A stretch of DNA of 64,000 nt from Candidatus Gastranaerophilales bacterium (lineage in GTDB: Bacteria; Cyanobacteriota; Vampirovibrionia; Gastranaerophilales; Gastranaerophilaceae): positions 1 to 64,000 of the forward strand of contig CALUYD010000010.1 in assembly GCA_944324915.1 (NCBI GenBank), written 5' to 3'. Of the stretch, positions 1 through 58,488 are shown piece by piece. The notes below the pieces were generated by a model. That model was not told the DNA's origin and made no database searches. It saw only the letters and a list, made by a program, of their open reading frames with translations. The translations under genes were made by a program, and so were the position numbers. The stretch's first letter is position 1. Every line of letters begins with the position of its first letter.

Positions 1-665
1 CAACAGGACAATGCAGTGCTTGTAATGATGGGTATGAATTGAAAAATGGAGTGTGTGAACAAGGAAGTAATGAATTACTGTTTACGTATACAGGAAGTTA
101 CTCTGAAATATACAATGCAGATGGCAAACAAAAGATATACTTAAAATCAGACGGAACTTTTACTGCGCTAAATACGCTAAAAGCTACATTATTTCTTGTT
201 GGTAGTGGAGGTAATGGTGGTAATGCAGCAAACAAACAAGGCTCTTGGGCTGCGGGTGGTGGCGGTGGCTATACAAATGAAACCCTATTTACATTTACAC
301 AAAATGCTCAATACGAAATAATAATAGGTAGTGGAGGTGGCAAAAAAACATCTTTTGCAAATATTACTGCCGATGGAGGTCAAAATGCTTCAGGCTCTAC
401 TCCAGGTAGCCCAAATGGTGGCAGGTCATGTGTCAAGGGAGGCGACGGAGTTCAATTTGATGGAGAATGGTATGCTGGTGGTGGAAGCGGAGGATGCGGC
501 GGTGGAGTTAGCGGATCACTTGGCGGCGGAGGAGCAGGTGCACCGGGTATACAAGATGGTAGAGCAGGAAAAGCTAATACCGGCGGTGGTGGTGGCGGCG
601 GCGGCGACTGGGGCGGACGAGGCGGTGCTGGCGGCTCAGGTATAATAATAATTCTTGCAAACTAA
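1..665 (+). CDS. Cys-rich / glycine-rich surface protein, 5' truncated
   Basis: The frame is open from the left edge of the window (first full codon at 3), so the gene starts upstream; the TTG at 39 is internal. The first visible residues, CSACNDGYELKNGVC, match the Cys-rich repeat style (CSACNSGYHISGGKC) of the prepilin-like protein at 34304. The remaining ~200 residues are a glycine-rich domain with long Gly runs and a hydrophobic GSGIIII end, as in glycine-rich domains of surface and tail-fibre-like proteins. I infer a secreted or surface-exposed protein, possibly also with an N-terminal prepilin signal, but that part is outside the window. A hairpin terminator follows. GC content rises in the Gly-rich part because of GGC/GGT codons. 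Confidence 0.75.
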   Translation, partial: TGQCSACNDGYELKNGVCEQGSNELLFTYTGSYSEIYNADGKQKIYLKSDGTFTALNTLKATLFLVGSGGNGGNAANKQGSWAAGGGGGYTNETLFTFTQNAQYEIIIGSGGGKKTSFANITADGGQNASGSTPGSPNGGRSCVKGGDGVQFDGEWYAGGGSGGCGGGVSGSLGGGGAGAPGIQDGRAGKANTGGGGGGGGDWGGRGGAGGSGIIIILAN

Positions 666-10655: not shown

Positions 10656-11237
10656 ATGAAAAAAATTTTATGTTTTGGAGATTCAAATACTTTCGGTTTT
10701 AATCCGAGCAATTTTAACAGATATTCAATATCTGAAAGATGGAGCGGTATTTTATCTCAAAAATATAACGTAGTAGAAAAAGGCTGCAACAATAGAACCT
10801 GCTTTAACAATAAAGCTGAACTAAATTCTCTTGAAACAATAACAAAATATATAGATAACAATATAACCGATTTAATTCTTCAAATCGGAATTAACGATTT
10901 ACAATTTCAATATAACATTACCCTTGAAAATTTTGAAATCGGACTAGAAAATTTAATTAAACTCATAAATCCAAAAATTAATATCGTGCTTTTATGCCCC
11001 AATGTAATTGATAGATGTATTTTAAGCAGTAATTTTTCAAGTTTATTTAACGAAAAATCTATTGAAAAATCCAAAAATTTAATTGAAATTTATAAAAAAA
11101 TATCAAAAAAATATAATTGCCACCTAATCAATCTGAATGACTATTTAACATTATCAAATCGAGATGGACTTCATTATGATATTGAAAACCACAAAATTCT
11201 TGCAAATTTACTAATTGAATATTTTGATAAAAATTAA
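10656..11237 (+). CDS. SGNH/GDSL-family hydrolase
   Basis: A 193-residue SGNH hydrolase (lipase/esterase family). Block I is FGDSNTFG at residues 7-14 with the catalytic Ser, block III is IGIND with the conserved Asn, and the catalytic Asp/His pair is in DGLHYD near residue 172. No signal peptide is visible, so it acts in the cytoplasm. The natural ester is unknown; relatives deacetylate sugars or cleave acyl esters. Its last 4 nt overlap the convergent degenerate-ATPase gene. Confidence 0.85.
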   Translation: MKKILCFGDSNTFGFNPSNFNRYSISERWSGILSQKYNVVEKGCNNRTCFNNKAELNSLETITKYIDNNITDLILQIGINDLQFQYNITLENFEIGLENLIKLINPKINIVLLCPNVIDRCILSSNFSSLFNEKSIEKSKNLIEIYKKISKKYNCHLINLNDYLTLSNRDGLHYDIENHKILANLLIEYFDKN

Positions 11238-12631
11238 ATTAAATATTTTTCTAAATCTTTTTTATCAAAAACTTCAATACTATCTTTGCTATGAATAAAA
11301 ATCAAACAACTTATTACGGATTTAAACATAGTAAATTCACTATATTCAAATTTTCGTCTTAAATCATCCATATTTTCTGCCATAAACTCAGTAATAAGAG
11401 TTTTATTTTTTAAAGTCAAAGAAGTAAAAAAGTCCAAGCCCTCTTTTGTTGTTATTCCTTCAAAATAAATAATATCAGGAGATTGGAATTCAATAAATCT
11501 CATTGCTTTATCTAAATTAAAACCGATATTTTCATTTAATTCACATTGCGCAACGCCTTTTAAGCGATATTTTGCAATGGATTCCAACGTCATAACATTT
11601 TTTGATTTAGAAATTAAATTAGACAATATTGAATATATCAAATGTGTTTTACCGGACAAAGAAGCACCACAAATCAACACAATTCCGGATTTTTCAAGAG
11701 ATTTTTTGATAAGCTCAATTTTATCTTGGGCAATATTTAATTTTTCAATTTCAAGCGGAGGATGATATATTTTAATTAAAATCCTCTCCCCGGCAATTGT
11801 AGGAAACGCGCTAACGCTGGCAGTTAATTCATTATTATCCACATTAAAATTCAATTTTCCTAATTGAGGTATTTCAAAAACATTAGGATCAAGATTAGAC
11901 ATTGATTTTAAAGATTGAATAAAAGAACTTGTTAAAAGACTTGGAATTGTTCCTGTTTGAATAATTTTATCAGGCTTTTTAAAATTAACGGTTAAGCCTT
12001 CTTGAGAATTTTCAAAATACAATTCATGGACATCTTGACTGATTGCTTGTTTTAAAATCGCTCTAAATAAAACTTGTATATGTTCAAAAGACAAATCATC
12101 ATTATGAAGTTCTTCTTGCCAATTATAGCTTTTAGAATTATCAATGTTTATATCTTCAACTTTTGCCTTTATATCATAATATTCATTAATTTTTTTTAGA
12201 ATGCTTTTTTCTGAAGCTATAACAGGGTCAATATTTTTCTTTGTAATTTGCATAATCTTATCAATAGAAAACAAATCCATAGGATCAGCCATAGCAACAG
12301 TTAAAGTATCTTCAATTATAAACAAAGGCAATATTTTAAAACGAATTGCATCTTGATAAGTTATAAAATCCAAACATTTTTTATCGATTGAATAATTCTC
12401 TAAATCGACACAAGGAGTATGCAGTTTTTCTTCCAAAAAACGCATTAGAACCGCTTCATCTATCATTTGAGTATTAATCAAAATCTGACCGATATTTGTA
12501 TTTTGCGCTATTGCAAGCTCACTTGCATGTTCTATATCATCATAAGTTACAAGCCCGTCACGCACTAAGTCATATTTTAATTTATCAATCGTTTTATTAT
12601 CAAGAGAACTGTTTTCGTTTAATAAATCCAT
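11234..12631 (-). CDS. Degenerate GspE/PilB-type secretion ATPase
   Basis: A 465-residue paralogue of the assembly ATPase at 54879. An N-terminal MshEN/T2SSE_N-like region covers about 15-155, followed by a RecA-like domain. Walker A is intact (GASLSGKT, 322-329), but the Walker B/GEIRD segment of active enzymes reads FEGITT here, the HLVLSTIHTN His box is replaced (KTLITEFMAEN), and the C-terminal tetracysteine zinc module is absent. It may therefore bind but not efficiently hydrolyse ATP. It is the third gene of an operon after a sensor kinase and a receiver protein (16-nt gap), suggesting a signalling or regulatory role on the pilus/secretion machine. AGGTG upstream supports the start. Confidence 0.82.
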   Translation of the reverse strand: MDLLNENSSLDNKTIDKLKYDLVRDGLVTYDDIEHASELAIAQNTNIGQILINTQMIDEAVLMRFLEEKLHTPCVDLENYSIDKKCLDFITYQDAIRFKILPLFIIEDTLTVAMADPMDLFSIDKIMQITKKNIDPVIASEKSILKKINEYYDIKAKVEDINIDNSKSYNWQEELHNDDLSFEHIQVLFRAILKQAISQDVHELYFENSQEGLTVNFKKPDKIIQTGTIPSLLTSSFIQSLKSMSNLDPNVFEIPQLGKLNFNVDNNELTASVSAFPTIAGERILIKIYHPPLEIEKLNIAQDKIELIKKSLEKSGIVLICGASLSGKTHLIYSILSNLISKSKNVMTLESIAKYRLKGVAQCELNENIGFNLDKAMRFIEFQSPDIIYFEGITTKEGLDFFTSLTLKNKTLITEFMAENMDDLRRKFEYSEFTMFKSVISCLIFIHSKDSIEVFDKKDLEKYLI

Positions 12632-28900: not shown

Positions 28901-30160
28901 ATGAAAGATGAAACAAAATGCCTTCATAGCGGATATAAGCCTGAAAACGGCGGCCCTGGGGTTATGCCGATATATCAAAGCACAACATTTAGATTTAACT
29001 CAACACAAGAAATTGCAGCAGTTTTTGATGACCCTACTAAAGCTCATATTTATTCAAGATTTACAAATCCTACTGTTGATTGCGTAGAAAAGAAAATTGC
29101 AGATTTAGAAGGTGGTGTTGCTGCAATGTGCACTACATCAGGACAAGCTGCAAGTTTAATTTCAATTTTAAATCTTGCAAGTGCAGGAGATAGAGTACTT
29201 TCAACAAGCGCTATTTATGGCGGAACAGTAAATCTTTTTGCAGTAACCATGAAAAAATTTGGTATCACGGTTGATTTTATTGATGTAGATGCAACAGAAG
29301 AAGAAATTCAAAAGATGATAACACCAAAAACTAAAGCAATATTTGGTGAAACATTAACAAATCCCAGCTTACAAATATTAGACATTGAAAAATTTGCCAA
29401 TATTGCACACAAAAACGGCATACCATTAATTATAGATAACACTTTTGCAACTCCAATTTTATGCAAACCTATTGAATTTGGAGCAGACATTGTAATTCAT
29501 TCGACAACAAAATACATGGATGGACATGCCCTTCAAGTTGGTGGTGTTATTGTGGATTCCGGAAAATTTAACTATGCGAACGGTAATTTTCCTGATTTTA
29601 CAGAGCCTGATGAATCTTATCATGGAACAATATATGTAAAAGATTATCCAAATTGCCCTTATATAATTAAAGCAAGAGCCCAATTGATGAGAGATTTTGG
29701 CTGCTATCCATCAGGAATGAGCGGATTTTTACTAAATTTAGGTTTAGAAACACTAGCCCTTAGAATGGAAAGATACTGCGAAAACGGTCTAAAATTAGCA
29801 AAATTTTTCGAAAATCATCCAAAAATCGAATCTATAAATTATCCTAATCTAGAAAACGATAAATATTATAAATTAGCTCAAAAATATCTGCCAAAAGGAA
29901 CATCCGGAGTAATGAGCATTACAATCAAAGGCGGAAAACAAGAAGCAATTAAATTTATGGATAAACTAAAATTAGCTTCAAAAGAAGTCCATGTTGCAGA
30001 CATAAGAACTTGCGTATTACATCCGGCAAGTGCTACACACAGGCAATTAACAGATGAACAACTTATAAACTGCGGAATAAACCCTGGCATGGTAAGGGTT
30101 TCTGTTGGGCTTGAAAACATAGAAGATATAATTAAAGACTTTGAACAAGCTCTTAGCTAA
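28901..30160 (+). CDS. metY: O-acetylhomoserine sulfhydrylase (Cys/Met metabolism PLP enzyme)
   Basis: A 419-residue PLP enzyme of the Cys/Met metabolism family. Motifs: YSRFTNPTVDCVEKKIA, the TTSGQAASL cofactor-phosphate region, DNTFATP, and the PLP lysine in HSTTKYMDGH near residue 206. The insertion containing DESYHG and the length fit O-acetylhomoserine sulfhydrylase better than cystathionine gamma-synthase; methionine gamma-lyase is the main alternative. It would make homocysteine from acetylhomoserine and sulfide. TATAAT and AAGGAG precede the ATG, so this is a conventional leadered gene. Its 3' end overlaps the convergent prepilin peptidase by 8 nt. Confidence 0.85.
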   Translation: MKDETKCLHSGYKPENGGPGVMPIYQSTTFRFNSTQEIAAVFDDPTKAHIYSRFTNPTVDCVEKKIADLEGGVAAMCTTSGQAASLISILNLASAGDRVLSTSAIYGGTVNLFAVTMKKFGITVDFIDVDATEEEIQKMITPKTKAIFGETLTNPSLQILDIEKFANIAHKNGIPLIIDNTFATPILCKPIEFGADIVIHSTTKYMDGHALQVGGVIVDSGKFNYANGNFPDFTEPDESYHGTIYVKDYPNCPYIIKARAQLMRDFGCYPSGMSGFLLNLGLETLALRMERYCENGLKLAKFFENHPKIESINYPNLENDKYYKLAQKYLPKGTSGVMSITIKGGKQEAIKFMDKLKLASKEVHVADIRTCVLHPASATHRQLTDEQLINCGINPGMVRVSVGLENIEDIIKDFEQALS

Positions 30161-31157
30161 AATGACTTAAAATATAACTTTTAATTTGAGGAAGATAAAA
30201 TATACAAGCAACTGAAGCAATAATCATTGCAGGCCCAAAAGGCAATAAGTTGAATTTTTCTTCCTCAACTACTTTTATTTCTTCTTTTTTGCGTTTAATT
30301 TCTTCTAAGATAGTAATCAAATTAGAAATTAAAATAGATGAAATTACAAGCAAAGAGCATATATACATAAATTGATTTTCGATTGGTTTAAAATAGTCAA
30401 TCAAAAATAAAATTATAATAAAAGCAAATGCCGATAAATATGCATAAGAAAGATTTTTTTTATATTCAGTACATGCTTTATAAGAAAGCATAGGTAGTGC
30501 ACATAAAGATTGAATTAACATACTAAGAGCAAGAACTATAAAAAATGTCTTATATCCAAAAATAGCCCCTAAGCCTAGCGCTATAAGGCTATCGCCCTCA
30601 CCAAACATTCTTTGAGCACAAAAAAGTTTTCCAAAATTGGCTAATATTTCCATTGAAATAAAACCAACAAGAGCACCGATTAACGAGTGAATTATATCGA
30701 CATCTCCAAGATTTAAATAAGAGTACAAAATACCAACCGCACACAAAATATAAGCATGTGTATCAATTATAACCATTTCTTTAATATCAGTTGCGCTCAT
30801 TGCGATAAATAAGAAAAATATAACCCATAAAAATAAAGTCTTTAGGGTTAATCCAAAAGTTAAATAAATAATTAAAAAAGAAATACCACAAATTAGCTCA
30901 ACAATTGGATATTGAATTGAAATTTTTGTCTTACAAAAAGCACACTTTCCTTTTAAAAAAATATAAGAAATTAAAGGTATATTCATATACCACTTTAATT
31001 GATTTAGGCATTTTGGACATCTTGAGCGAGAAAAAATAAATTCTTCTCCGGATAGTCCTCTTAAGATAACTACATTTAAAAAAGACCCTACACACAGTCC
31101 TAAAATAAAGACATAAGAAGCAATAAAACCGACAGGCAAAAGCTCCAAACTATTCAT
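30153..31157 (-). CDS. Prepilin peptidase / N-methyltransferase (PilD/GspO)
   Basis: A 334-residue integral membrane aspartic protease that removes the leader from type IV prepilins and pseudopilins and N-methylates the new end. Visible: GSFLNVVI in the first helix, two CxxC pairs of the cytoplasmic zinc loop (CPKC, CAFC), and the two catalytic Asp motifs SATDIKEM near 123 and FGEGDSLIALG near 188. At least seven hydrophobic segments. It overlaps the upstream sigma factor gene by 8 nt, so the two are cotranscribed. The C-terminus has an unusual Lys/Glu-rich insertion (about 285-305) before a last membrane helix. Confidence 0.93.
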   Translation of the reverse strand: MNSLELLPVGFIASYVFILGLCVGSFLNVVILRGLSGEEFIFSRSRCPKCLNQLKWYMNIPLISYIFLKGKCAFCKTKISIQYPIVELICGISFLIIYLTFGLTLKTLFLWVIFFLFIAMSATDIKEMVIIDTHAYILCAVGILYSYLNLGDVDIIHSLIGALVGFISMEILANFGKLFCAQRMFGEGDSLIALGLGAIFGYKTFFIVLALSMLIQSLCALPMLSYKACTEYKKNLSYAYLSAFAFIIILFLIDYFKPIENQFMYICSLLVISSILISNLITILEEIKRKKEEIKVVEEEKFNLLPFGPAMIIASVACIFYLPQIKSYILSHFS

Positions 31158-34303: not shown

Positions 34304-35641
34304 ATGAATAAAGAAGAGAAAAATAGTAAAAAGATACTTTTTTTTAAAAGTGCTTTTTCATTGGTTGAATTAATGATAAGCCTTATAACAATTTCTGTTG
34401 TTGTATCGGCACTTGCCCCCATAATAACCAAAAAACTTGGCGGAAAAAATGGTGTCTCTATAATGGAAGACAACCTTACAACATATTGTGAAAAAAAATT
34501 TACAAGCGATTGCAAACTATGTGATGGTAACAAAAGATGCGTAGTATGCGAAAAAAGCTGCCCATCAGGAAAAGATGATGATAAATGTGAATGCTTTATA
34601 TGCACAGATGATGATTTTTTACCAAATTGCATGCAATGTAACAAAGAAAAATGTTTCAAATGTGAAGGCGGATATGGTCTAGGAAATAGGGACTGTACTT
34701 TATGTCCAATAGGCAAATATTCAGATGGAACATTTGAATGTAGAGAATGTTCACAAGGATACTATACTGCTACTGCAGGAAGCACAACTTGTACATTGTG
34801 CGAAGTCGGTAACAAATGTAACGATGGTATCAAAACACAATGTCTACCGGGAAGCTATCAAAATAACTCTGGTCAAACAACTTGTAATACTTGTCCAGCT
34901 GGAACATGTCAACCAAATCAAGGACAATCAACTTGTACAAATTGTTCTACCGGATATTATCAAGACCAAACAGGTCAAACTCTCTGCAAAACCTGCTCAA
35001 GCAAAACTCTAAATTGTGCAGAATGTGTTGCAACAAACGGAACTTGTACAAGATGTAATAGCGGATATTATTTAGCAGCAAATAAAACTTGTCAACCTTG
35101 TCCTGCAAACGGTCAATGCACAAACGGAAACACTATTTCATGCAATGCGGGATATTATTTAAGCGGTACAACATGCATAATATGCCCGAACGGAAAATAC
35201 TCGACAGGCGGAGCAACTTCATGCTTAACGTCAACAGTAATTTCGCAATGTGTGACATATAGCAAAACTTCAAATGCTTGTAGCGCTTGCAATAGCGGTT
35301 ATCACATATCAGGTGGTAAATGCGTTTCAGACTGCACATGTTCAAACGGAACTTGCACAGCATCATCAGGTTCAAGTTGTGGTTCATGTAACGCCGGATA
35401 TTATTTAAGCAATGGCAGTTGCGTTAGATGTCCAGCAGGTTCTGCATGTTCAGGCGGCACGGCAGGCAAAAAATCCTGCGGCGGCCTAACTTGGTCTGGA
35501 GCTGGTGCAACAAGTTGTAGCTGGTGTTGGATAGGTAACTGTAACGCGGGTATCTGTACAGAAGTAAACCACACATCTGGAACTTGCAAAAAATGTCTTG
35601 GTTGCTATTATTTATCAGGCGAAGGTTGCAGACAAAAATAA
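34304..35641 (+). CDS. Prepilin-like protein with Cys-rich GCC2/GCC3-type repeats
   Basis: A 445-residue protein. The N-terminus is a type IV prepilin signal: basic leader, then A17 followed by FSLVE with Glu at +5 and a hydrophobic helix (18-42). From about residue 60 to the end it is a chain of Cys-rich repeats such as CPIGKYSDGTFECREC, CSQGYYTATAGSTTC and CNSGYYLAANKTC, close in style to GCC2/GCC3 ephrin-receptor-like and furin-like repeats that are mostly known from eukaryotic surface proteins. The likely product is a processed, surface-displayed pseudopilin or minor pilin with a disulfide-rich stalk; prepilin peptidase is at 30153. AGGA precedes the ATG. The partial gene at the left edge shares the repeat type. 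Confidence 0.85.
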   Translation: MNKEEKNSKKILFFKSAFSLVELMISLITISVVVSALAPIITKKLGGKNGVSIMEDNLTTYCEKKFTSDCKLCDGNKRCVVCEKSCPSGKDDDKCECFICTDDDFLPNCMQCNKEKCFKCEGGYGLGNRDCTLCPIGKYSDGTFECRECSQGYYTATAGSTTCTLCEVGNKCNDGIKTQCLPGSYQNNSGQTTCNTCPAGTCQPNQGQSTCTNCSTGYYQDQTGQTLCKTCSSKTLNCAECVATNGTCTRCNSGYYLAANKTCQPCPANGQCTNGNTISCNAGYYLSGTTCIICPNGKYSTGGATSCLTSTVISQCVTYSKTSNACSACNSGYHISGGKCVSDCTCSNGTCTASSGSSCGSCNAGYYLSNGSCVRCPAGSACSGGTAGKKSCGGLTWSGAGATSCSWCWIGNCNAGICTEVNHTSGTCKKCLGCYYLSGEGCRQK

Positions 35642-41350: not shown

Positions 41351-42937
41351 ATGGAAACAAAAGTAAGAGATATTCTATCAAATTCATATATTGATTGCAC
41401 AGATTTGCAATTAAAAGAAAAATATGAACAAATTAAATCAAGCAACAATAATACAAAAACAAACGAAGCTCTAATAATTGCAATCGAAGCAATTAAAAGG
41501 GTTTATGATTATAATATCACTAATGAAGACCTTGAAAAACTTGATATGTTTATAAATAAAACAAGTTTAAATATATCAAATAGCGAGGCCTTTTATCCGT
41601 TTTTATTATATACAATTACTAAAGAAATAGAAAACAAATATTTACATGCATTATTTATAGACGATTTTCTTGCAAGAAAATATTTTATACAATCGGAGCC
41701 TTTTTACGAATTTCTAGGCATAAAAGCGTCATTTAATTTTATAAACGAAAGCAATTCAACCATTAAACCAAACATATTTAGCGCAAATATTATTTTTTCA
41801 GATTGGAAAAGAATAATTTGGGAACATATTTATAATTTAAACATCCAAAAAGTTGTAGATAAAATTAATCTTAAATTTGATTGCGCATTTATTTTTGATA
41901 TGGATAGAATAATTTATGATTATGAAAAATTTACAATTAAATTCAACTCAAATGATTTAAATCCAAATGAAATAAAAGTAAAAAAATTTTTCAAATTATA
42001 CAAAGAAATAATTGGCGTGTCTCCTTGCTTATTTCTTGAGGGCAAAAAAATTGAAAAAAATTACAATATAAAAACACAAAACACACTAAATAATAAAGAC
42101 ATATTAAGCAAAATAAAAAATGCTAGTGAAAAATTTTACAAAAGCAGATTAGATAAGATTAGGTCTTTATCAAAAGAAATTGAACTATTAAACAACAATC
42201 AAGAAACAGTAATTATTGATATAGATGATAATGAGGACTTTGAACTTTTATGCGAATTTTTAAAATTTAAAAATATCAGGTTTTCAACAATAGATGAAAA
42301 CACCGATATTTTTGATAATGATATATTAACAATTCTAACACCAAACAAAATAAGTATAATAAGAAATATGCTCAACGCAAGCATTGAATCTAAGCTGGGC
42401 GGCGACTATAAAGAAATTGCAAAAATTAACACATACATGACAAACGCTGATGTTGGCACAAATTTCTACAATAAAAAACTCAAACAAGAACTTAAAGAAC
42501 AAAAAGAAATACAAGAAAAAAACAAAGAAATTATCCAAAATAAAGGCGGTATAAATCTCATTTTTGCAAGTCATTATACAGAATTAAAATCCGAATACGC
42601 AATAATAAAAAATTACTATTGCACACCTATTAAAAATTTAACCTTTTATAATTGCTCTGAAGATACCGTATACAAAGAATTCAAACTAAACAAATTAAAC
42701 ATCTTTAACAAACAGGATACGCAAGAAAACAAAATTTTGTTTGATATTTTTGCTAAATTTGTTTTTTATTTCAAAAAATTTGCCATAAACAGAATGATTA
42801 GGCAAACTGATGATTGTCTTGTATTAAATGTACAGAAAAATGAATTTCCAAACAATTCTTATAAAGAAAAAGTTGGAAGAAACGACCCCTGCCCTTGCGG
42901 AAGCGGGAAAAAATACAAAAATTGTTGCGGAGGTTAA
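41351..42937 (+). CDS. Hypothetical protein with C-terminal SEC-C zinc motif
   Basis: A 528-residue protein with no domain I recognise except at the extreme C-terminus, where GRNDPCPCGSGKKYKNCC is a canonical SEC-C motif that binds one zinc through CxCx(8)CC. A coiled-coil-like stretch rich in Lys/Glu/Gln lies near 380-400. SEC-C tails are adaptor elements on SecA and many unrelated proteins. It is the first gene of a likely four-gene operon: the next gene begins 2 nt after its stop and its ribosome site (GGAGG) lies inside the SEC-C codons. GGAAG precedes its own ATG. Confidence 0.82.
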   Translation: METKVRDILSNSYIDCTDLQLKEKYEQIKSSNNNTKTNEALIIAIEAIKRVYDYNITNEDLEKLDMFINKTSLNISNSEAFYPFLLYTITKEIENKYLHALFIDDFLARKYFIQSEPFYEFLGIKASFNFINESNSTIKPNIFSANIIFSDWKRIIWEHIYNLNIQKVVDKINLKFDCAFIFDMDRIIYDYEKFTIKFNSNDLNPNEIKVKKFFKLYKEIIGVSPCLFLEGKKIEKNYNIKTQNTLNNKDILSKIKNASEKFYKSRLDKIRSLSKEIELLNNNQETVIIDIDDNEDFELLCEFLKFKNIRFSTIDENTDIFDNDILTILTPNKISIIRNMLNASIESKLGGDYKEIAKINTYMTNADVGTNFYNKKLKQELKEQKEIQEKNKEIIQNKGGINLIFASHYTELKSEYAIIKNYYCTPIKNLTFYNCSEDTVYKEFKLNKLNIFNKQDTQENKILFDIFAKFVFYFKKFAINRMIRQTDDCLVLNVQKNEFPNNSYKEKVGRNDPCPCGSGKKYKNCCGG

Positions 42938-42939
42938 TT

Positions 42940-43911
42940 TTGGACAAAAACAAAATATTTAAATATGGAAAAGATATTGTTTGGTCACTGCCAATATTAT
43001 TTCAATACGAACCTGTATGGCGAGTAATTTATAACACAGCAAAAGAATATGGAATAGAATTGCCTAACGCTAATGGCTTTGGATGCCCAGGGATGGCTTG
43101 GTATGGCGGCAGATTACCAAATATAAAAGAAGAGGTTGAACCAAGAATACTCTTTAAAATCTTCAATTATTGCAGAGAAATGAATATAACGCCTGCATTA
43201 ACATTCAATAGAATACAAATCGACAAAGATGATCTTAAAGATAAATATGCAAATTATATTTTAGATATGGCACTTGAAACAAAATGTCATTTTATAGTTT
43301 GTTCAGATTTATTAAAAAATTATATAAAAGAAAAAGACCCTAATGCGCATATTACAGCGTCTATCATACAAACACAAATAAAATTTCAAGGAGAAAACGC
43401 AAAAAATTGGTCAATTGAAAACGAAACAAATCATTATAACAATCTATTAAAAGAATATGATATGGTTGTTGTAAGACCGGAATATTCAATGGATGTACTA
43501 ACTAAAAATCCTGATTTTATTGATGATATATCAAAAATAGAAATACTTGTAAATCAAAGATGTATCAAAAACTGTCCAAAGGTTCACGAGCATTATTTAA
43601 TAATTGAAAAATACGACCCTGATAAAAATTTCAAATGTATAATAGAAACAAGTTCAGACAGAAAATGGGTATACGATAATTGCGTTTCACATGACGAAAA
43701 AACAATACAAAAGCTCGTAGACAATGGAATAAAACACATAAAACTTCAAGGTAGAGGTATTGGGCTATCTAATTTAGGACTTGCAATGATGTTATTTGCG
43801 CGCATATTTGATCAAGGTGGCGGAAATCATCATATACTTGAGAGAATATTAGTCGGTTCGATAGATCAAGAAACTTATAACTTTGCACAATGGTTAAATA
43901 AACAATTTTAA
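42940..43911 (+). CDS. Tandem paralogue 1 of an uncharacterised family, possibly U32-like
   Basis: A 323-residue protein, first of three tandem paralogues. The start is TTG at 42940, directly after GGAGGTTAATT. The pattern of alternating strands and helices suggests a TIM barrel. CxxxC in NQRCIKNCPKVHEHY near 210 plus a third Cys (FKCIIE) and the late segment HIKLQGRG recall Fe-S U32 peptidase-family proteins (conserved Cys set and a K-x-x-GR motif), but this is only a resemblance. YGGRLP near 55 and VVVRPEYS near 180 are conserved in the family copies. Function unknown. Confidence 0.75.
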   Translation: MDKNKIFKYGKDIVWSLPILFQYEPVWRVIYNTAKEYGIELPNANGFGCPGMAWYGGRLPNIKEEVEPRILFKIFNYCREMNITPALTFNRIQIDKDDLKDKYANYILDMALETKCHFIVCSDLLKNYIKEKDPNAHITASIIQTQIKFQGENAKNWSIENETNHYNNLLKEYDMVVVRPEYSMDVLTKNPDFIDDISKIEILVNQRCIKNCPKVHEHYLIIEKYDPDKNFKCIIETSSDRKWVYDNCVSHDEKTIQKLVDNGIKHIKLQGRGIGLSNLGLAMMLFARIFDQGGGNHHILERILVGSIDQETYNFAQWLNKQF

Positions 43912-43932
43912 TTAAAGAAGAAACAGGAAAAA

Positions 43933-44904
43933 ATGATAAATAATATATTTAAATTCAAAAACCAAGAATGGGTATTGCCTTTATTATTTCAATACGATGC
44001 AATATGGGCAACCATACATAATACACTTAAAGATTTTAGTGTGGAATTACCAAAAGCAAGTTTATTCGGTTCACCGTCAATTTTGTGGGCGGGCGGAAGA
44101 GTTCCAAGATTATACGGCAAATTCAACAGAAAATTTTTCACAAATTGGTTTTCATACGTAGTTGAGCACAATGCTACACCAACGCTTACTTTTACATCCA
44201 CAAAAATAACAAAAGAAGATTTAAAAGACGAATATGCAAATTTTATATTGGATATAGCGCTTGAATTTAACTGTAATTTTATAGTTTACTCGGATATATT
44301 AAAAGATTATATTAAAGAAAAAAAACCAGAAGCTAAAATTACAGCCTCTGTAATTAAAGCAAATTGCAGATTTCAAGGTCCAAATAGAATTGAAGAACCA
44401 ACAATTGAAAATGAAACAAATTACTATAATAAGCTATTAAAAGAATATGATATTGTAGTTGTAAGACCGGAATACTCAGAAAAAACTTTAGCAGAAAATC
44501 CTAATTTAATAGATGACTTATCAAGAATTGAAGTATTAATAAATCAGCCATGTATCAGAAATTGCCCTAAAATGCCGGAACATTACCATTATTTGCAAAA
44601 CTACAACACCATGCCAAATTACGGAGATAGCTTCAGATGCATAAGAATGGATATGGAATCAAGTGTTTTATACAAAAATAATTTAATACATGAAAAAGAA
44701 ACAGTTGAAAAACTTATTGAAAATGGTATCAATATACTCAAGCTGCAAGGAAGGGGAACAGCTATAAGTACTTTAGATTTGTTATTAATTTTAATGGATA
44801 ATATTTTTATAAAGGACGGAAACAATCAAATTATCTTGAACTCAATAACCGATAATTTAGAATACGAAATAAACAATCTAAATCAAACAATAAACAGACA
44901 ATAA
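43933..44904 (+). CDS. Tandem paralogue 2 of the uncharacterised, possibly U32-like family
   Basis: A 323-residue protein 21 nt downstream of copy 1, with AGGAAA before the ATG. It keeps the shared features: WVLPLLFQYDAIW near the start, AGGRVP, VVVRPEYS, NQPCIRNCPKMPEHY with CxxxC, a third Cys in SFRC, and the LQGRG motif. A 110-nt stretch (44368-44477) is almost identical to copy 3. Function unknown; retention of all motifs suggests it is active. Confidence 0.75.
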   Translation: MINNIFKFKNQEWVLPLLFQYDAIWATIHNTLKDFSVELPKASLFGSPSILWAGGRVPRLYGKFNRKFFTNWFSYVVEHNATPTLTFTSTKITKEDLKDEYANFILDIALEFNCNFIVYSDILKDYIKEKKPEAKITASVIKANCRFQGPNRIEEPTIENETNYYNKLLKEYDIVVVRPEYSEKTLAENPNLIDDLSRIEVLINQPCIRNCPKMPEHYHYLQNYNTMPNYGDSFRCIRMDMESSVLYKNNLIHEKETVEKLIENGINILKLQGRGTAISTLDLLLILMDNIFIKDGNNQIILNSITDNLEYEINNLNQTINRQ

Positions 44905-44913
44905 GGAAAAGCA

Positions 44914-45894
44914 ATGACAGACATCAACAAATATAAAAACATTACTTGGAATTTACCGCTGCTATTTCAGGCAGATATAATATGGGGAGCTATATACAAT
45001 AAGATTAAATCATACAATTTGGAACCTCCTAAAGTAAATCTATATGGCACACCTGCACAAAGATGGATAGGCGGCACAATACCGAGGGTAAAAGAAAAAT
45101 TACAAAAAAATGTATTATATGAACATTTTAAATATGTCAAAGAAATGGAAGCAACACCTATATTAGATTTTACTTCGACAAGAATTACAGAAGAAGATTT
45201 AAAAGACGAATATGCAAATTACATTTTAGATATAGCCCTTGAATTTGACTGTAATTTTATGGTACATAGCGATTTTTTAAAAGACTATATTAAAGAAAAA
45301 AAACCTAGCGTAAAAATAATATCATCACACACAAAACCCGTATACAGATTTCAAGGTCCAAATAGAATTGAAGAACCAACAATAGAAAATGAAACAAATT
45401 ATTATAATAAGCTATTAAAAGAATATGATATTGTAGTTGTAAGACCGGAATACTCCAAATATACCCTCCTTAAGAATTCAAATTTAATAGATGACATCTC
45501 AAGAATAGAAGTATTAATAAATCAACCTTGCACAATAAATTGTCCGAAAATGCCGGAACATTTCATGCATCTGGAAAATATCAGTAAAATTCCAAATTAT
45601 TGTGTAAATTTTGAATGCACAAGATCAAATATGCCACCGGCGGTATTATATGAAAACAATCTTATACACAACGACAAAACAATAAACAGTCTTATTAATA
45701 TCGGCGTTAAAAACTTAATGCAAATTTCAAGACAAATAGACGCACCTCCGATAACCGCAAGTGAAACCATCCAAAATATGTTTAACACGGACGGAAGCAA
45801 TCATTTACTACTAACCGAGACAATACCTCATGCTATACAAGATGAAATTGCAAAATACAATCAAAGAATAAATAAAATTTTAAATCCGAATTAA
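44914..45894 (+). CDS. Tandem paralogue 3 of the uncharacterised, possibly U32-like family (diverged motifs)
   Basis: A 326-residue protein 9 nt downstream of copy 2; AAGGAAAA precedes the ATG. It keeps the CxxxC (NQPCTINCPKMPEHF) and third Cys (NFEC), but the GGR block reads IGGTIP and the LQGRG motif is replaced by MQISRQIDA, so two positions conserved in copies 1 and 2 are lost. It may be a non-catalytic partner or a specialised paralogue. The last 15 nt overlap the convergent maf gene. Confidence 0.75.
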   Translation: MTDINKYKNITWNLPLLFQADIIWGAIYNKIKSYNLEPPKVNLYGTPAQRWIGGTIPRVKEKLQKNVLYEHFKYVKEMEATPILDFTSTRITEEDLKDEYANYILDIALEFDCNFMVHSDFLKDYIKEKKPSVKIISSHTKPVYRFQGPNRIEEPTIENETNYYNKLLKEYDIVVVRPEYSKYTLLKNSNLIDDISRIEVLINQPCTINCPKMPEHFMHLENISKIPNYCVNFECTRSNMPPAVLYENNLIHNDKTINSLINIGVKNLMQISRQIDAPPITASETIQNMFNTDGSNHLLLTETIPHAIQDEIAKYNQRINKILNPN

Positions 45895-51768: not shown

Positions 51769-52947
51769 ATGTTTTTTGAGGATGAAAAAGATATAATTAA
51801 AGAGGGTACCGATATACGTATAGATGAAGACGGTACAGTAACTTGGGAAGATGTTTTAAACAACGAAGAAGACATCGCCGGCATGCCAAATATAGAGCAT
51901 GAAGGGAAAACCGTAGATTTAGGCGATGAATTAGAGCTCGTTGACGATACAGAAAAAGAAGTCAATGACCAAGAATTACTTGAAATACTTAACGGTGTTC
52001 AAGCTAATTCTTCACAAGCCAACGATACACAAAATCAAAATAAAGAAGAAGATTTTGATATTGACGAACAACTAGCAAATGTTGTCATGGAACAAAATCA
52101 AAGTCAAAATCAAGATCAAAATCAAGAAGAATATATTCCAAGAAAACAAGAGAAAAAACAAACTTCAAGTACTTCACCTTTGCTAATAATTATATTAATA
52201 GGGGTGTTAATTGCAAGCGGCATATATTATGGTTTGCAATATTTTCAAGAAAATCAAATGCTAAATGAAATTTCTCAAAAAGAAATTGCTCCAAAACCGT
52301 CAGTACAAGAAGAAATGAATAATCTCACACAAGAAGACCTTACTCAACGTCAAGAAGAAAATATTCCTGTAATAAACGAAGAAGAGGTTAACGAAGTAAA
52401 ACCCGAAGAGGCAAAACCGGAAGTTGAGAAAAAACAAGTTATAAACGTTATTCCAACAGGAAGAAGCAACCCTTTTATGCCTATTGCAAAATATGCTAAA
52501 ACAACAATTCCTGACACAAGCGTATTGTATGATAAAGTTGGTGTTCCAAAACCGCCTGAAACATACGGAATACAACAAGAAGAAACAATGCAAATGATGA
52601 CAATTGCAGTTTCTGGCATAATGTATGACGAAGTTAAACCATCAGCAATAATTACATACAATGATAACGATTATTTTGTACAAAAAGGCGATAGATTAGA
52701 TAACTACAAAATAATAGATATAGCAAGAAATCACGTTACAATTGCTCTTGGAAACAATACATACAGAGCAAATGTTGGAGAAGAATTTAAAATCACATCC
52801 AAATTCAATGGAAGTGCTCAATTTATTCCTTCGCAACAAGGAGGAGGAAAACAATATTACTCTGTTACAAAAGAGGAAAGTCAAAGTAAAAAAAGTTCTG
52901 ACACAAGATATGTCTCAGAAGAAGATATTACAATTAACACAAAATAA
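51769..52947 (+). CDS. Pilus/secretion inner-membrane protein, PilP/GspC-like
   Basis: A 392-residue single-pass protein. An acidic, Gln/Asn-rich cytoplasmic N-terminal part (about 1-135) leads to one membrane helix (LLIIILIGVLIASGIYYGL, about 140-160). The periplasmic region carries GRSNPFMPIAKY and a C-terminal beta domain (GIMYDEVKPSAIITYNDNDYFVQKGDRLDNYKIIDI) that resembles the HR domain of PilP and GspC, which contacts the secretin. It is directly upstream of the secretin gene (24 nt). The ATG lacks a clear Shine-Dalgarno. Confidence 0.82.
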   Translation: MFFEDEKDIIKEGTDIRIDEDGTVTWEDVLNNEEDIAGMPNIEHEGKTVDLGDELELVDDTEKEVNDQELLEILNGVQANSSQANDTQNQNKEEDFDIDEQLANVVMEQNQSQNQDQNQEEYIPRKQEKKQTSSTSPLLIIILIGVLIASGIYYGLQYFQENQMLNEISQKEIAPKPSVQEEMNNLTQEDLTQRQEENIPVINEEEVNEVKPEEAKPEVEKKQVINVIPTGRSNPFMPIAKYAKTTIPDTSVLYDKVGVPKPPETYGIQQEETMQMMTIAVSGIMYDEVKPSAIITYNDNDYFVQKGDRLDNYKIIDIARNHVTIALGNNTYRANVGEEFKITSKFNGSAQFIPSQQGGGKQYYSVTKEESQSKKSSDTRYVSEEDITINTK

Positions 52948-52971: not shown

Positions 52972-54861
52972 ATGCAAAAAATTAGACCGTATAGTGCAGG
53001 TAAAGTGTGTTTAGCTCTTTTGAGCTTAACATTGTTAACGCAAACGGTTTTTGGGTATGACAAAGATAGAGTTACTTATTTAGATAGCGTTGCAGGGTCT
53101 TATATGTATAATCAGCAAGACTCTTCGCCAAGTATACTAAATATGAATTCTATGGACGCCAGAGGGATAGAAGCAACACTTAAACTTGATTCACTACCTA
53201 CAATCAGCAATTCTAAAGCAAAAGTCAATCTTTCTCTTAGAGATTCTGATATAAAACAAGCACTTAGAATGATTGCAGATAAGGGCGGTTTAAATATAGT
53301 TTTTGACAAATCTGTAGATGGAAAGATAACTCTTGATTTAAATAACGTAACAGTTAACGATGCTTTTATGATTATATTTAAATCATCACAACTCACATAT
53401 ACAATGGACGGCAACACAATTACCGTCATGACAATTGAAGCATCCAAAAATCTTGCATACACTCAGCAAAACATGACAGTATTACCCATTAAATATGTAA
53501 ATGCTGAAAATGTTGCAAACTTTTTAAATGCAAATTTATTTAATTCAAAAATATTTGGACTATCCAACAAGCAAATAGTTACTTCAAACCCTGCTACAAA
53601 CCAAATAATCGTATTTGGTACAATGGCAGACGTAAATGCTATCAAAAGAGTTTTACCAATGATAGATACAAAACCAATGGTAAACAGTTTCAAAGTTAAC
53701 CACACAACTCCCGAAGAAATGGCTAACCTGCTTTGCGAAGCGTTATTTTATAACCAAGGTAACGGCTCGATGGCTTCTCAAACTTCTTCAACAAGCAGCA
53801 GCTCATCAGATGAAAGAATTTCATTAGGTGAAGGCAAAATTGCTTGCAGATTTAGCGGACAAGAAGTTCCATCCAGCGAGGTATCGCCTTTTGCTAATAC
53901 ACCTTTAACTATTGCTTATTTTCCGGAGCTGGGAAAAATTAACTCTTATGGCGGTTCAGTAGAGCAAGTTGAAATCATAAAAGAGTTCATCAAAGAACAC
54001 GATAAAAAACAATTAATGGCTTATATCGAGCTATCAGTTATAGAATTAAATGAACAAGGTTCAAAAGAATTTTCAAATACTTGGAATTTATGGACACCGT
54101 TTATCTCGCTTGGCTTCGACCAATCAAACGGTTTAACAACGTTATCACCATTCTTTATATGGGGAAATAACTATACAACATCAGTAACAGATAGCGTAAC
54201 AGGTGATGACGGCTCAACAAGTACTACAACAACACCAACTACAATTTCAAAATCAAACAACTCAGCTTTAGTTTATCAATTAAAATACTTAATTGAAAAC
54301 AACAACGGCAGAGTATTAACCAATCCAAAAATTATGGTTACAAACGGCAAAACCGCAATTATTGATATGACATCAGACTATGTAAAATCAGTTACAAGCC
54401 AAATTTTACAAGGTTCAGACACTGTAACAAGCGCAACACAAAGAACTTATGATATTGGTTCTGATGAAGGTTTATTAATTGAAATAATACCATTTATTTC
54501 ACCTGATGGATATGTTTCAATGAATATATCACCTGAATTTGCAACAATCAAAAGCCAAGTTTACACAACAAACGAAGCCGGTCAACAAGAGCTTGCGGCA
54601 ACATTATTGCAAAGACGTGACTTAGAACTTAAAAATATAAGAATAAAAGACGGTGAAACACTTGTTTTAGCTGGTTTAATCAAAGAAAATGAAACACAAA
54701 CAACAAGCAAAATGCCTCTATTATCAGATCTACCATTTATTGGAGCATTCTTCAGAGGAAGCAATTCAATGAAAAGCCGTGAAGAGTTAGTTATTGTTGT
54801 AACACCTCACATTGTTAAAGATGGACAAGACATACCTGAAGATCAAATATACGACTTATAG
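52972..54861 (+). CDS. Secretin of a type IV pilus / type II secretion system
   Basis: A 629-residue outer-membrane secretin. It has a signal peptide (basic start, LALLSLTLLTQTVFG, cleavage near 29), an STN/N0 domain (LSLRDSDIKQALRMIADKGGLNIVF), N1-like domains (IKYVNAENVANFLNANL, NSFKVNHTTPEEMANLLCEAL), a Ser-rich linker and the secretin core (ALVYQLKYLIENNNGRVLTNPKI, then PLLSDLPFIGAFF and REELVIVVTPHIV). Secretin rings of 12-15 subunits let pili or folded proteins cross the outer membrane. GGGAG precedes the ATG. The following assembly ATPase gene starts 17 nt after its stop. Confidence 0.95.
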   Translation: MQKIRPYSAGKVCLALLSLTLLTQTVFGYDKDRVTYLDSVAGSYMYNQQDSSPSILNMNSMDARGIEATLKLDSLPTISNSKAKVNLSLRDSDIKQALRMIADKGGLNIVFDKSVDGKITLDLNNVTVNDAFMIIFKSSQLTYTMDGNTITVMTIEASKNLAYTQQNMTVLPIKYVNAENVANFLNANLFNSKIFGLSNKQIVTSNPATNQIIVFGTMADVNAIKRVLPMIDTKPMVNSFKVNHTTPEEMANLLCEALFYNQGNGSMASQTSSTSSSSSDERISLGEGKIACRFSGQEVPSSEVSPFANTPLTIAYFPELGKINSYGGSVEQVEIIKEFIKEHDKKQLMAYIELSVIELNEQGSKEFSNTWNLWTPFISLGFDQSNGLTTLSPFFIWGNNYTTSVTDSVTGDDGSTSTTTTPTTISKSNNSALVYQLKYLIENNNGRVLTNPKIMVTNGKTAIIDMTSDYVKSVTSQILQGSDTVTSATQRTYDIGSDEGLLIEIIPFISPDGYVSMNISPEFATIKSQVYTTNEAGQQELAATLLQRRDLELKNIRIKDGETLVLAGLIKENETQTTSKMPLLSDLPFIGAFFRGSNSMKSREELVIVVTPHIVKDGQDIPEDQIYDL

Positions 54862-54878
54862 AGATTAATAAATAAAAA

Positions 54879-57263
54879 ATGGATAACAGTACAATCACAA
54901 AATTAATAAAAAAAATAGATTTCGATCTAGCAAACAACTTTGAATTATCGGTTACAAAAGAACTTTCTTTTGTGCCGATAAGTATGCAAAAAAACACAGC
55001 AACAGGAGAAGATGTGTTTTTTGTTGCGGTTTGCAAAGATTCTGACCAGACAAAAATCAAAGAATATATAGCAAAATCTATAAACAATACTGTTAACTTT
55101 ATAAAAATGTCACCAAATGATTTTAGTGTATTGTATGACACATTTTTAAAAAAATTCTCAGAATTTCATGGTGGCGAACTTCCTCCTGTTATAAAAAACA
55201 ATGTTGAATCAAATTTAATCGACTTAGATGATGATACAAATCTTGAGATAACAGATGAAGACTTAAGTATTGATGAAGATTTTGACATAACAGATGACAA
55301 TATTCTTTCATCAGAAGAAGAATATGACGATGACGATGACGACGATGATGAATATGATAATGAAATTGAAACATTACCAGATGATGATGACAAACTCGAA
55401 GATTTTGATAAAACAGACAACGAAGACGATATTATAAATAATGACGATGATACATTACAAAAAGATAATTCATCTGCTGATGAAGAATATGGACTTGACG
55501 GAAAACCAAAAGCAGATATTTCAAAAGTAAAAGCTCCAAGAACAAAAAGACTTGGTGAAATTTTAATAGAAGAAAATTTAATAAACGAAGAACAGCTGGA
55601 AATTGCATTGGCAGAAAGCAAATCACAAGGAATACCATTAGGTTCGGTATTAGTTAAACTAGGATTTGTAACAATTAAAGATTTAAAAGAAGCGCTTGGC
55701 GCGCAAATGGGCTTAAAATATGCAACAGCAGAGCAGCTAAAAGCTCTACCAACAGCAATTTCAATTTTGCCTGAAGACTTTATAAAATTAAATAAGGTTG
55801 TGCCGTTAAGCATGACAGATAAATCATTAGTTGTTGGTATGGTAAACCCCAACGATACAAAAGTTATCAATGAAATTGTTTATCAAACAGGCTTAAAACC
55901 AACAGTAATGCTTGTAACTCATGTTGAATTTGAGAACTTTATAAATACATATTACAGTGCAGATAAGCAAGAAACAAATGAACTATTACAACAAATCAAT
56001 GAAGATGAATCACTCGTTTCTAACGCAGGAGAGCTTTGGGATCAAGTAGAACAAGAAATTCAAGATTCAGATGGTGCAGTATCGCAATTAGCTAACAAAA
56101 TCATAACAATGGCAATTGATAGACGCGCATCAGATATTCACATAGAGCCACTAAATGTAGGCTACAGAGTTAGATTAAGAATTGACGGTTCATTGCAAGA
56201 AGCACTGAAAATTCCTGCAAAAGTTGATAGCGCCGTAATTTCAAGATTTAAAGTATTATCTAAAATGAATATCGCAGAGCATAGACGTGCGCAAGATGGT
56301 TCGTTTACGCTAAAATACAAAAATAAAGCTCAAGATTTCCGTGTAAATACACTACCTGTTGCGGGCAGAGAAAAAATGGTAATCCGTGTTCTTGCACCAC
56401 AACTAGATTCAAAACAAGCAAAAGCTGATAAAATCGAAATAAACGGAGCTTCAGAAGAAGATTTAAAGAAAATAAGATATTTAGTTTCATCTCCAAACGG
56501 AATTGTTTTAACATCAGGTCCGACAGGTTCAGGTAAAACAACTACTCTATACGCCCTTTTGAGATATATGAATTCAGATGACATTAATATCACAACAATC
56601 GAAGATCCGGTTGAAATCAAGTTAGAAGGTATAAATCAATCTTCAATCAATCCAAAAGCAGGTATTACTTTTGCAAATTCACTTCGTGCAATATTAAGAC
56701 AAGACCCTGATACAATATTGATAGGTGAAATCCGTGACTACGAAACTCTTGAAGTTGCTATTTCAGCTTCTTTAACAGGTCACCTTGTATTATCAACAAT
56801 TCACACAAATTCGGCAGCAGCAACAATTACTCGTTTAATAGAAATGGGTGCAAAAGATTACTTAATTTCTTCTACTATTTCAGGCATTATCGCACAACGT
56901 TTGGTTAAAAAACTCTGCCCTAACTGCAAAGAAGCATATTTTCCAACAGTAGAAGAAGCAAGAAAAATTTTAACAGACCCTGTTGAAATACAAAAACTTA
57001 CAAAAACAAAACTATACAAACCGCACGGATGCCCAAACTGTAAAAACTCAGGATATTTAGGACGTCTTGCAGTACTAGAAATTCTTGTAATCAACAATGA
57101 AATCAGAAAAATGATAGCTCAACGTGCACATGATGTTGAATTAGAAGATTATGCAATAAGACAAGGAATGAAAACTCTTAAAATGTCTTGCTTAAGACAC
57201 ATTTTAGAAGGTAATACTTCAATAGAAGAACAAGTAAGAATACTCGGTTTAGCAGGTGAATAA
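54879..57263 (+). CDS. Pilus/secretion assembly ATPase (PilB/GspE) with acidic N-terminal linker
   Basis: A 794-residue hexameric motor. Residues 1-120 are unrecognised; about 110-205 is a very acidic linker with runs of Asp/Glu. An MshEN-type domain (KRLGEILIEENLINEEQL, GSVLVKLGFV; about 222-330) could bind c-di-GMP. The ATPase has Walker A SGPTGSGKTTT near 545, the Asp box TTIEDPVE, Walker B IGEIRD, the His box STIHTN, and a C-terminal tetracysteine zinc module (CPNCKEAY and CPNCKNSG). All catalytic elements are intact, unlike the paralogue at 11234. It is followed by the platform protein gene at 1 nt. Confidence 0.95.
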   Translation: MDNSTITKLIKKIDFDLANNFELSVTKELSFVPISMQKNTATGEDVFFVAVCKDSDQTKIKEYIAKSINNTVNFIKMSPNDFSVLYDTFLKKFSEFHGGELPPVIKNNVESNLIDLDDDTNLEITDEDLSIDEDFDITDDNILSSEEEYDDDDDDDDEYDNEIETLPDDDDKLEDFDKTDNEDDIINNDDDTLQKDNSSADEEYGLDGKPKADISKVKAPRTKRLGEILIEENLINEEQLEIALAESKSQGIPLGSVLVKLGFVTIKDLKEALGAQMGLKYATAEQLKALPTAISILPEDFIKLNKVVPLSMTDKSLVVGMVNPNDTKVINEIVYQTGLKPTVMLVTHVEFENFINTYYSADKQETNELLQQINEDESLVSNAGELWDQVEQEIQDSDGAVSQLANKIITMAIDRRASDIHIEPLNVGYRVRLRIDGSLQEALKIPAKVDSAVISRFKVLSKMNIAEHRRAQDGSFTLKYKNKAQDFRVNTLPVAGREKMVIRVLAPQLDSKQAKADKIEINGASEEDLKKIRYLVSSPNGIVLTSGPTGSGKTTTLYALLRYMNSDDINITTIEDPVEIKLEGINQSSINPKAGITFANSLRAILRQDPDTILIGEIRDYETLEVAISASLTGHLVLSTIHTNSAAATITRLIEMGAKDYLISSTISGIIAQRLVKKLCPNCKEAYFPTVEEARKILTDPVEIQKLTKTKLYKPHGCPNCKNSGYLGRLAVLEILVINNEIRKMIAQRAHDVELEDYAIRQGMKTLKMSCLRHILEGNTSIEEQVRILGLAGE

Positions 57264-57264
57264 C

Positions 57265-58488
57265 ATGGCAATATTCACATACACAGCTTTAAAAGACAAT
57301 AAAATAACTGTCACAGGCAGAATTGAAGCTCGTGACATAGCAGAAGCTCGCAGAAAAATTCGTCAAATGAATCTATTGCCCACTTCTATTATGGATATAG
57401 AAGCAGCAGACAATAAAAAAGGCGGTTTATCGTCTTTAAAAAATGTAGGCAAAATTACAGCCCTTAGTTTAAAAGAAAAAATTGATTTCACTTCAACTTT
57501 GGAAATGTTAACTTCAACAGGCATTCCTATTATCGAAGCTCTATTATTTATCGAACAAAACTCTGACTCATCCAGAGTAAGAACAATGACTCACAGCTTT
57601 AGAAAAGAAATCATAGGCGGTACAACACTAGGTGAAACCCTTGAAAAATACAGAGATATTTTTGGAAGGGTATATATTGGCCTTGTTAAAGCCGGTGAAG
57701 ACTCTGGGGAACTTGATAAAACCCTAACTCGTATGTTGGAACTATTAAAAAAACAAGATGCAGTAAAAGGTAAAGTTATAGGGGCATTAGTATATCCTAC
57801 AATCGTAGTTCTATTAGCAATTGTTGCCGTTCTTATAATGTTGATATTCGTATTTCCGGCATTCCAAGAAATGTTTAACAATTTAGGCAAAGAGCTACCT
57901 CCAATAACACAATTTTGTATGAATGCTGGAACATTTATGAAAGAATATTGGATTGCTTGTTTATTAGGAACAGCAATTACAATATTTATTTTAACAACAT
58001 TATACAAGCAGCCTTCTATCAGAAACAGAATTGATGCGCTTGTTTTACACATCCCAATTCTTTCAAAAATGTTAAAATATTCAAACTTTTCGAACTTTAT
58101 AGCAGTATTACAAGTATCCTATGAAGCCGGTATTCCAATTGTCGACTGTTTATTTTTAGCAAATTTAACCATGGATAATTATCTGCTTAAAACAACAATT
58201 ATGGACGCAGCAACGAAAGTGCAGCAAGGTATGCATTTATCTACTGCTCTAAAAAATGCAAATCAGGTACCCACAATGATGACTTTTATGATAGCAACAG
58301 GTGAGCAATCAGGTAGATTAGGTGATTCACTATATCATTGTGTAACATATATTGATAAAGAATTAGATGCAACAATAGATAATTTTACTAAATTAATTGA
58401 ACCTATGCTTATGGTGGGTATTGGTATATTGGTTGCAATATTAGGTTTAGCGTTGTACTTACCGTTATTCCAGGCATATCAACAATAA
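57265..58488 (+). CDS. Pilus/secretion platform protein (PilC/GspF)
   Basis: A polytopic inner-membrane protein of about 407 residues that couples the assembly ATPase to pilin polymerisation. Two GspF/PilC repeats are visible: LKEKIDFTSTLEMLTSTGIPIIEAL and the parallel YSNFSNFIAVLQVSYEAGIPIVDCL, with EDSGELDKTL and EQSGRLGDSL motifs. Three membrane spans lie near 175-200, 225-245 and 375-400. I choose ATG 57265 because AGGTGA is 5 nt upstream; an upstream in-frame GTG lies inside the preceding gene. It ends the secretion operon. Confidence 0.95.
   Translation: MAIFTYTALKDNKITVTGRIEARDIAEARRKIRQMNLLPTSIMDIEAADNKKGGLSSLKNVGKITALSLKEKIDFTSTLEMLTSTGIPIIEALLFIEQNSDSSRVRTMTHSFRKEIIGGTTLGETLEKYRDIFGRVYIGLVKAGEDSGELDKTLTRMLELLKKQDAVKGKVIGALVYPTIVVLLAIVAVLIMLIFVFPAFQEMFNNLGKELPPITQFCMNAGTFMKEYWIACLLGTAITIFILTTLYKQPSIRNRIDALVLHIPILSKMLKYSNFSNFIAVLQVSYEAGIPIVDCLFLANLTMDNYLLKTTIMDAATKVQQGMHLSTALKNANQVPTMMTFMIATGEQSGRLGDSLYHCVTYIDKELDATIDNFTKLIEPMLMVGIGILVAILGLALYLPLFQAYQQ

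Follow-up and report, generated by a model that had tools for sequence, protein, structure and literature searches.

On balance, the intact open reading frame at positions 34304-35641 (+ strand, 445 residues) in DNA of Candidatus Gastranaerophilales bacterium, a gut bacterium from an order of cyanobacteria that do not photosynthesize, is best explained as belonging to a multi-copy and genus-specific family of modular minor type IV pilins: Proteins in which a disulfide-bonded stalk would carry exchangeable binding tips. We refer to the whole stretch of 64,000 nucleotides that was analyzed as the window and to this reading frame as the window gene. The initial annotation had placed a type IV prepilin cleavage site after A17 and eukaryote-like, Cys-rich repeats behind it; both the cleavage site and the coordinates proved right, and the gene can be divided as follows.

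34304..35641, + strand: prepilin/Cys-rich stalk protein (ORF of 445 residues; syntenic orthologue; dN/dS ~0.17)
34304..34354, + strand: 17-residue leader whose last residue, Ala, precedes the predicted PilD cut (sequence; A or G there in 49/49 members)
34355..34438, + strand: pilin-type hydrophobic helix, mature residues 1-28, with Glu5 and Pro22 (Glu5 in 49/49, Pro22 in 48/49; helix in a low-confidence single-sequence model)
34487..34705, + strand: N-terminal Cys module spanning residues 62-134, better conserved across the family than any other part (invariant cysteines in alignments; profile search)
34706..35458, + strand: Ephrin_rec_like/TNFR-like Cys-rich stalk repeats (PF07699 above cut-off; PDB relatives Mst1 and ELAPOR1)
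35477..35638, + strand: C-terminal Trp/Cys tail, residues 392-445, a candidate tip (conserved in the G011 orthologue; no Pfam match)

The protein has the type IV prepilin signature, that is, a short basic leader, a small residue at -1, and a hydrophobic helix with Glu5. Residues 1-44 read MNKEEKNSKKILFFKSA up to the predicted cleavage point and FSLVELMISLITISVVVSALAPIITKK after it; the site KSA/FSLVE puts Ala at position -1 and Phe+1, Glu+5, and Pro+22 into the mature protein. The N_methyl model (PF07963) remained under its cut-off of 21.2 bits in the protein scan (17.5 bits, E=0.003) and exceeded it in a six-frame search at the same gene (21.8 bits). Beyond the N-terminus no pilin domain model was matched, and the Cys-rich module starts ~44 residues into the mature protein. 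All 60 cysteines are located within residues 62-442, with CxxC spacing in 21 of the 59 gaps between them. The likeness of the repeats to eukaryotic sequences is borne out by Ephrin_rec_like (PF07699), which scores 31.7 bits against a cut-off of 23.1; no ordinary bacterial family reached its own cut-off over the repeats. A Pfam scan recognized no tip or binding domain. The single-sequence AlphaFold model of the protein is poor (mean pLDDT 44.9). The gene lies outside any pilin operon, its neighbors being rph and an unrelated ORF.

Another species, G011 (L017/L046), possesses a syntenic orthologue with 59-61% identity, and the gene order L10 - sigma factor - rph - gene - hypothetical - ilvC is shared by both species. 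The prepilin helix and the Trp/Cys tail at the C-terminus are retained in the orthologue, as is the first Cys module, and the two proteins are best conserved in their first 60 and last 60 residues. Since this synteny is accompanied by a dN/dS of ~0.17 (at a dS near saturation), the window gene is real and under purifying selection, which rules out a chance ORF or an assembly artefact.

We then turn from the single gene to its relatives. The window protein as query finds matches in 26 of 97 related genomes, the matching ones belonging to three genera, and when the N-terminal module was used as a profile, an order-wide set of 335 was headed by 24 genomes from the genus of the window genome. Because nearly all genomes of the genus score far better than anything outside it, where E-values reach only ~1e-8 to 1e-11, the family of Cys-rich stalk pilins is, as judged from profile scores, essentially genus-specific; G004 and G027, though in the genus, also match weakly. 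The same profile gave no relative in a scan of viral contigs, and a phage origin of the family was rejected on this basis. A similar combination of prepilin end and Cys-rich sequence occurs elsewhere in the order: G067, from another family, encodes a prepilin-type protein of 1587 residues and 96 cysteines (L085, G067:C6, 2475-7235), the C-terminal part of which is rich in D/N motifs. The initial annotation had proposed to look for the same fusion across related genomes, where it turned out to be conserved: No homologue without the prepilin motif came to light, as A or G at position -1 together with Glu5 was present in 49 of the 49 relatives read, and Pro22 in 48, the exception being the G067 outgroup. 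A motif pattern served to pick out these members, but no ORF whose 5' end is intact was excluded because it lacked the prepilin motif.

Behind the prepilin helix, family members are composed of a module with invariant cysteines, a stalk of variable length, and a tip. When assigned by simple sequence rules, the tips of 43 complete members from the genus comprise 21 that are Lcl_C-like, 11 that are Gly-rich, 9 that stay Cys-rich to the end, and 2 others; the window gene belongs to the nine, which come from several species. A Pfam scan of 42 members (E up to 0.01) identified Ephrin_rec_like in 31, Lcl_C (PF07603, which we take to be the domain formerly named DUF1566) in 13, and Gly_rich_2 in 4. 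In paralogues with one of the latter two tips, a pilin N-terminus and a separate candidate ligand-binding module are thereby found in one protein at the sequence level. The stalk cysteines are probably disulfide-bonded, which fits both the presence of a VKOR oxidase in 30 of 30 genomes tested and the counts of extracytoplasmic cysteines, which are even for 36 of 44 members.

The family is present in several copies in the window genome itself (G000; 1.8 Mb, 36 contigs, 99.98% complete). Six members were detected by profile, on contigs C10, C12, C6, C2, C3, and C14, and ~11 family N-termini if contig-edge fragments are included, copy numbers at the contig ends of draft assemblies being estimates. 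Contigs C18, C7, C10, and C2 (both ends) break off within the same first codons of a family gene, as would be expected if several near-identical 5' ends had broken the assembly; the members on C3 and C6 share 93.5% DNA identity across 694 bases at their 5' ends. Short-read assembly consequently hides both copies and tips. The contig of the window, C10, starts and finishes inside family members (window 1-665; G000:C10:71009-71047), the first of which is a second member in the window:

3..665, + strand: 3' part of a family member truncated at the contig start, with stalk end and Gly_rich_2 tip (translation; PF21722, E=1.9e-7)

Prepilin-type starts of all kinds amount to ~25 in this genome, besides short contig-edge fragments.

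The window also contains the prepilin peptidase and the secretin operon that had been noted initially, both now identified by Pfam matches.

30153..31157, - strand: prepilin peptidase of the PilD type, the expected leader processor (PF06750 and PF01478)
51769..52947, + strand: gene upstream of the secretin, with one hydrophobic segment (no Pfam match)
52972..54861, + strand: secretin (PF00263, E=5.6e-38)
54879..57263, + strand: PilB/GspE-type assembly ATPase with MshEN domain (PF00437, E=7.1e-126)
57256..58488, + strand: PilC/GspF-type inner-membrane platform protein (PF00482, E=3.5e-41)

The position of 51769..52947 suggests that its product is a PilP/GspC-like part. Two PilT retraction ATPases are encoded elsewhere in the window genome; PilM was not found there by Pfam, so the inner-membrane complex is either divergent or incomplete. 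Several further window genes may be recorded here. A second, divergent MshEN/T2SSE ATPase (11234-12631, - strand) is encoded separately from the secretin operon, and upstream of it lie a histidine kinase and a response regulator. An ShlB/FhaC-type transporter (58699-60474, - strand) diverges from a large filamentous-haemagglutinin-like ORF (60825-63998, + strand) that runs off the window, the two probably forming a two-partner secretion pair, and three tandem related ORFs of 323-338 residues (42895-45894, + strand) apparently arose by local triplication.

From these components the following mechanism can be proposed, in which cleavage, filament assembly, disulfide bonding, and ligand binding of the family proteins are predictions from sequence. 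PilD (30153-31157) would cleave after Ala17, and the helix Phe18-Lys44 would then serve as an assembly-competent pilin alpha1-N that is taken into the filament by the type IV pilus machine. The Cys-rich stalk, oxidized and disulfide-bonded in the periplasm, would substitute for the globular pilin domain, and its end would display a paralogue-specific tip away from the filament, where the tip could bind a surface ligand. Many of the tips in sister species are Lcl_C domains (C-type-lectin type) rewritten by a diversity-generating retroelement (DGR); those of the window genome are fixed, either Gly-rich or, in the window gene, a Trp/Cys tail as the candidate tip. Glu5 and Pro22 of pilins matter for filament assembly, beyond mere anchoring. 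Their retention in 49/49 and 48/49 members, respectively, together with PilD, secretin, PilB, and PilC in the window and the two PilT proteins, supports assembly into a pilus. Points that weigh against this reading are the place of the window gene outside a pilin operon, its lack of a recognized binding domain, the negative Pfam search for PilM, and, as set out below, a genome with neither reverse transcriptase nor Lcl_C match and a DGR target in G004 that lacks the stalk.

The same components permit another interpretation, to which we assign a minor share of probability: PilD would process an inner-membrane or periplasmic protein, for instance a pseudopilin-like accessory to a type II-like system, whose helix is solely a cleavable anchor and whose Cys-rich part remains in the periplasm. 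Packing into a filament is uncertain for a protein in which no globular pilin domain is recognized, the set of secretin, ATPase, and PilC could serve a type II-like system, and PilM was missing from the Pfam matches. The conservation of Glu5 and Pro22 and the two retraction ATPases, however, speak against a mere anchor, as do the tips of the sister species.

Reverse transcriptases (RVT_1) are encoded in 12 of 28 genomes of the genus. Those of G004, G016, G019, and G025 carry the motif IGNLTSQ, which we take to be typical of DGR enzymes, and not QGxxxSP; in each case the gene adjoins an A-rich repeat of ~215 bases that matches the tip-coding parts of family members. The differences between template and variable repeats concentrate at adenines: In G025, ten variable repeats in seven genes have 218 of 564 template A changed versus 79 of 1490 other bases, and in G019, eleven repeats in nine genes have 222 of 636 changed versus 71 of 1602. 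The clearest of three repeats in G016 shows 24/59 versus 0/153, and the single repeat in G004 19/56 versus 1/161. Per repeat, the adenine bias is significant with P ~1e-4 or better (Fisher test) for all but one, a G019 repeat with P 0.01. Wherever the 5' end of a variable-repeat ORF can be seen, it codes for the prepilin motif. Members in these four sister species are thus DGR targets. The target in G004 (L140, G004:C22, 2517-4172) has the prepilin end and lacks the Cys-rich stalk, which means that stalk and DGR are separable; its variable repeat is internal, with a Gly-rich part behind it. Another repeat beside the G025 reverse transcriptase has no adenine bias, and G018 has variable-repeat-like tips with no reverse transcriptase detected.

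Three further genomes were set aside as cases of this kind. In G009, the repeat next to the DGR-type reverse transcriptase differs at T rather than A positions: Between it and the variable repeat of a prepilin/Cys-rich member (G009:C3, L139; 4318-4530 and 6457-6669), 12 of 16 differences fall on T, and it is not A-rich, nor do other related repeats in this genome show a clean adenine bias. The DGR-like loci of G015 and G026 have targets that do not belong to this family; L142 (G015:C1) combines a reverse transcriptase with repeats of a different kind, and L141 (G026:C121) has adenine-only mismatches (8/8) in a phage-like target.

In the window genome, searches for an RVT_1 reverse transcriptase, an Lcl_C match, and a match to a DGR template were all negative. 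The window gene is consequently not a DGR target itself, and the DGR argument reaches it by homology to its sister-species paralogues. Through this homology it bears on the interior location just considered: C-type-lectin-type tips diversified by a DGR are sensible only outside the cell, and the partners bound by most cellular DGR targets are believed to be extracellular (PMC8144416). The stalked adhesin envisaged in the initial annotation, with its putative location on a pilus, is strengthened by the exchangeable tips as well as by tip mutagenesis in sister species.

An extracellular protein need not be part of a filament, and the leader could be processed for export through the secretin of the window, leaving the stalk free or bound to the cell without any pilus. 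The resemblance of the stalk to extracellular rod proteins such as the mastigoneme protein Mst1 would suit this arrangement. Nevertheless we consider it improbable, as the hydrophobic pilin helix would have to leave the membrane other than by filament assembly, and we know of no such route. More improbable still is a relic or sequence reservoir: The window gene would then have been left without its tip and be kept as donor for recombination among paralogues. It has no recognized tip domain, and paralogues have in common the near-identical 5' ends at which the assembly broke, but the G011 orthologue has the same locus, the same Trp/Cys tail, and a dN/dS of ~0.17, and nine members in several species likewise end in Cys-rich sequence.

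With the modular minor pilin as the preferred reading, a wider and more tentative proposal is that the genus runs a bacterial display repertoire, in which many type IV pilins per genome use disulfide stalks as a common scaffold for recombined or DGR-hypermutated tips. Tips might be exchanged by recombination in some species, and in others a single DGR might act on many dispersed genes. If this were the case, tip change could serve to keep up with a variety of glycans, hosts, or phages. The finding joins modular type IV pilins with diversity-generating retroelements and offers a testable genome-wide case, in a little-studied gut lineage, of pilins that anchor exchangeable and in some species hypermutated tips. 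It also provides a natural series of species having the same scaffold with and without the mutagenesis machine.

How does this family compare with known systems? The literature we covered, with most subscription journals and preprints outside its scope, does not describe the family or its Cys-rich stalks and reports no DGRs for this lineage or for Melainabacteria; in a termite-gut relative, type IV pilus genes have been recorded (PMC5877343). The solved structures closest by sequence are the mastigoneme protein Mst1 and ELAPOR1 (PDB 8tx1 and 9vql; E 1.8e-11 and 5.9e-5, repeats only). Ephrin_rec_like Cys-rich repeats of this class are present in both, and those of Mst1 are part of an extracellular hair, but the two proteins are eukaryotic and have no pilin part; the likeness is limited to the repeats and does not imply common descent.

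Among DGR targets, DUF1566 is reported to be the commonest Pfam domain, and putative pilin structures have been mentioned together with it (PMC6642488). The sister-species members resemble these targets in that the variable repeat ends a C-type-lectin-type domain and mutagenesis is adenine-specific. They differ in that as many as 11 variable repeats in ~9 dispersed genes share a single template and in that the repeats sit on pilin-anchored Cys-rich stalks; furthermore, no DGR was detected in the window genome itself. A gut bacterium with DGR-diversified pilus tips is also known from Bacteroides, where the tips are those of type V pili, as cited in a review (PMC12632263). Those pili, however, derive from lipoproteins and not from type IV prepilins, and the review text describes no Cys-rich stalk.

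The closest parallel in design is provided by the modular pilins PilB and PilC of Streptococcus sanguinis, which likewise combine a class III signal peptide, a pilin helix, and a binding module, the latter being proposed to reside at the pilus tip (PMC8179133, PMC9934059). Modular type IV pilins are widespread, with 264 architectures detected in InterPro (PMC8179133), which makes the fusion itself less unusual than initially thought. Unlike PilB and PilC, the window family has no recognized globular pilin module, adds a long Cys-rich stalk, and exchanges its tips on this shared stalk. What is new is precisely this: a Cys-rich stalk apparently in place of the globular pilin domain and an exchange of tips throughout the family.
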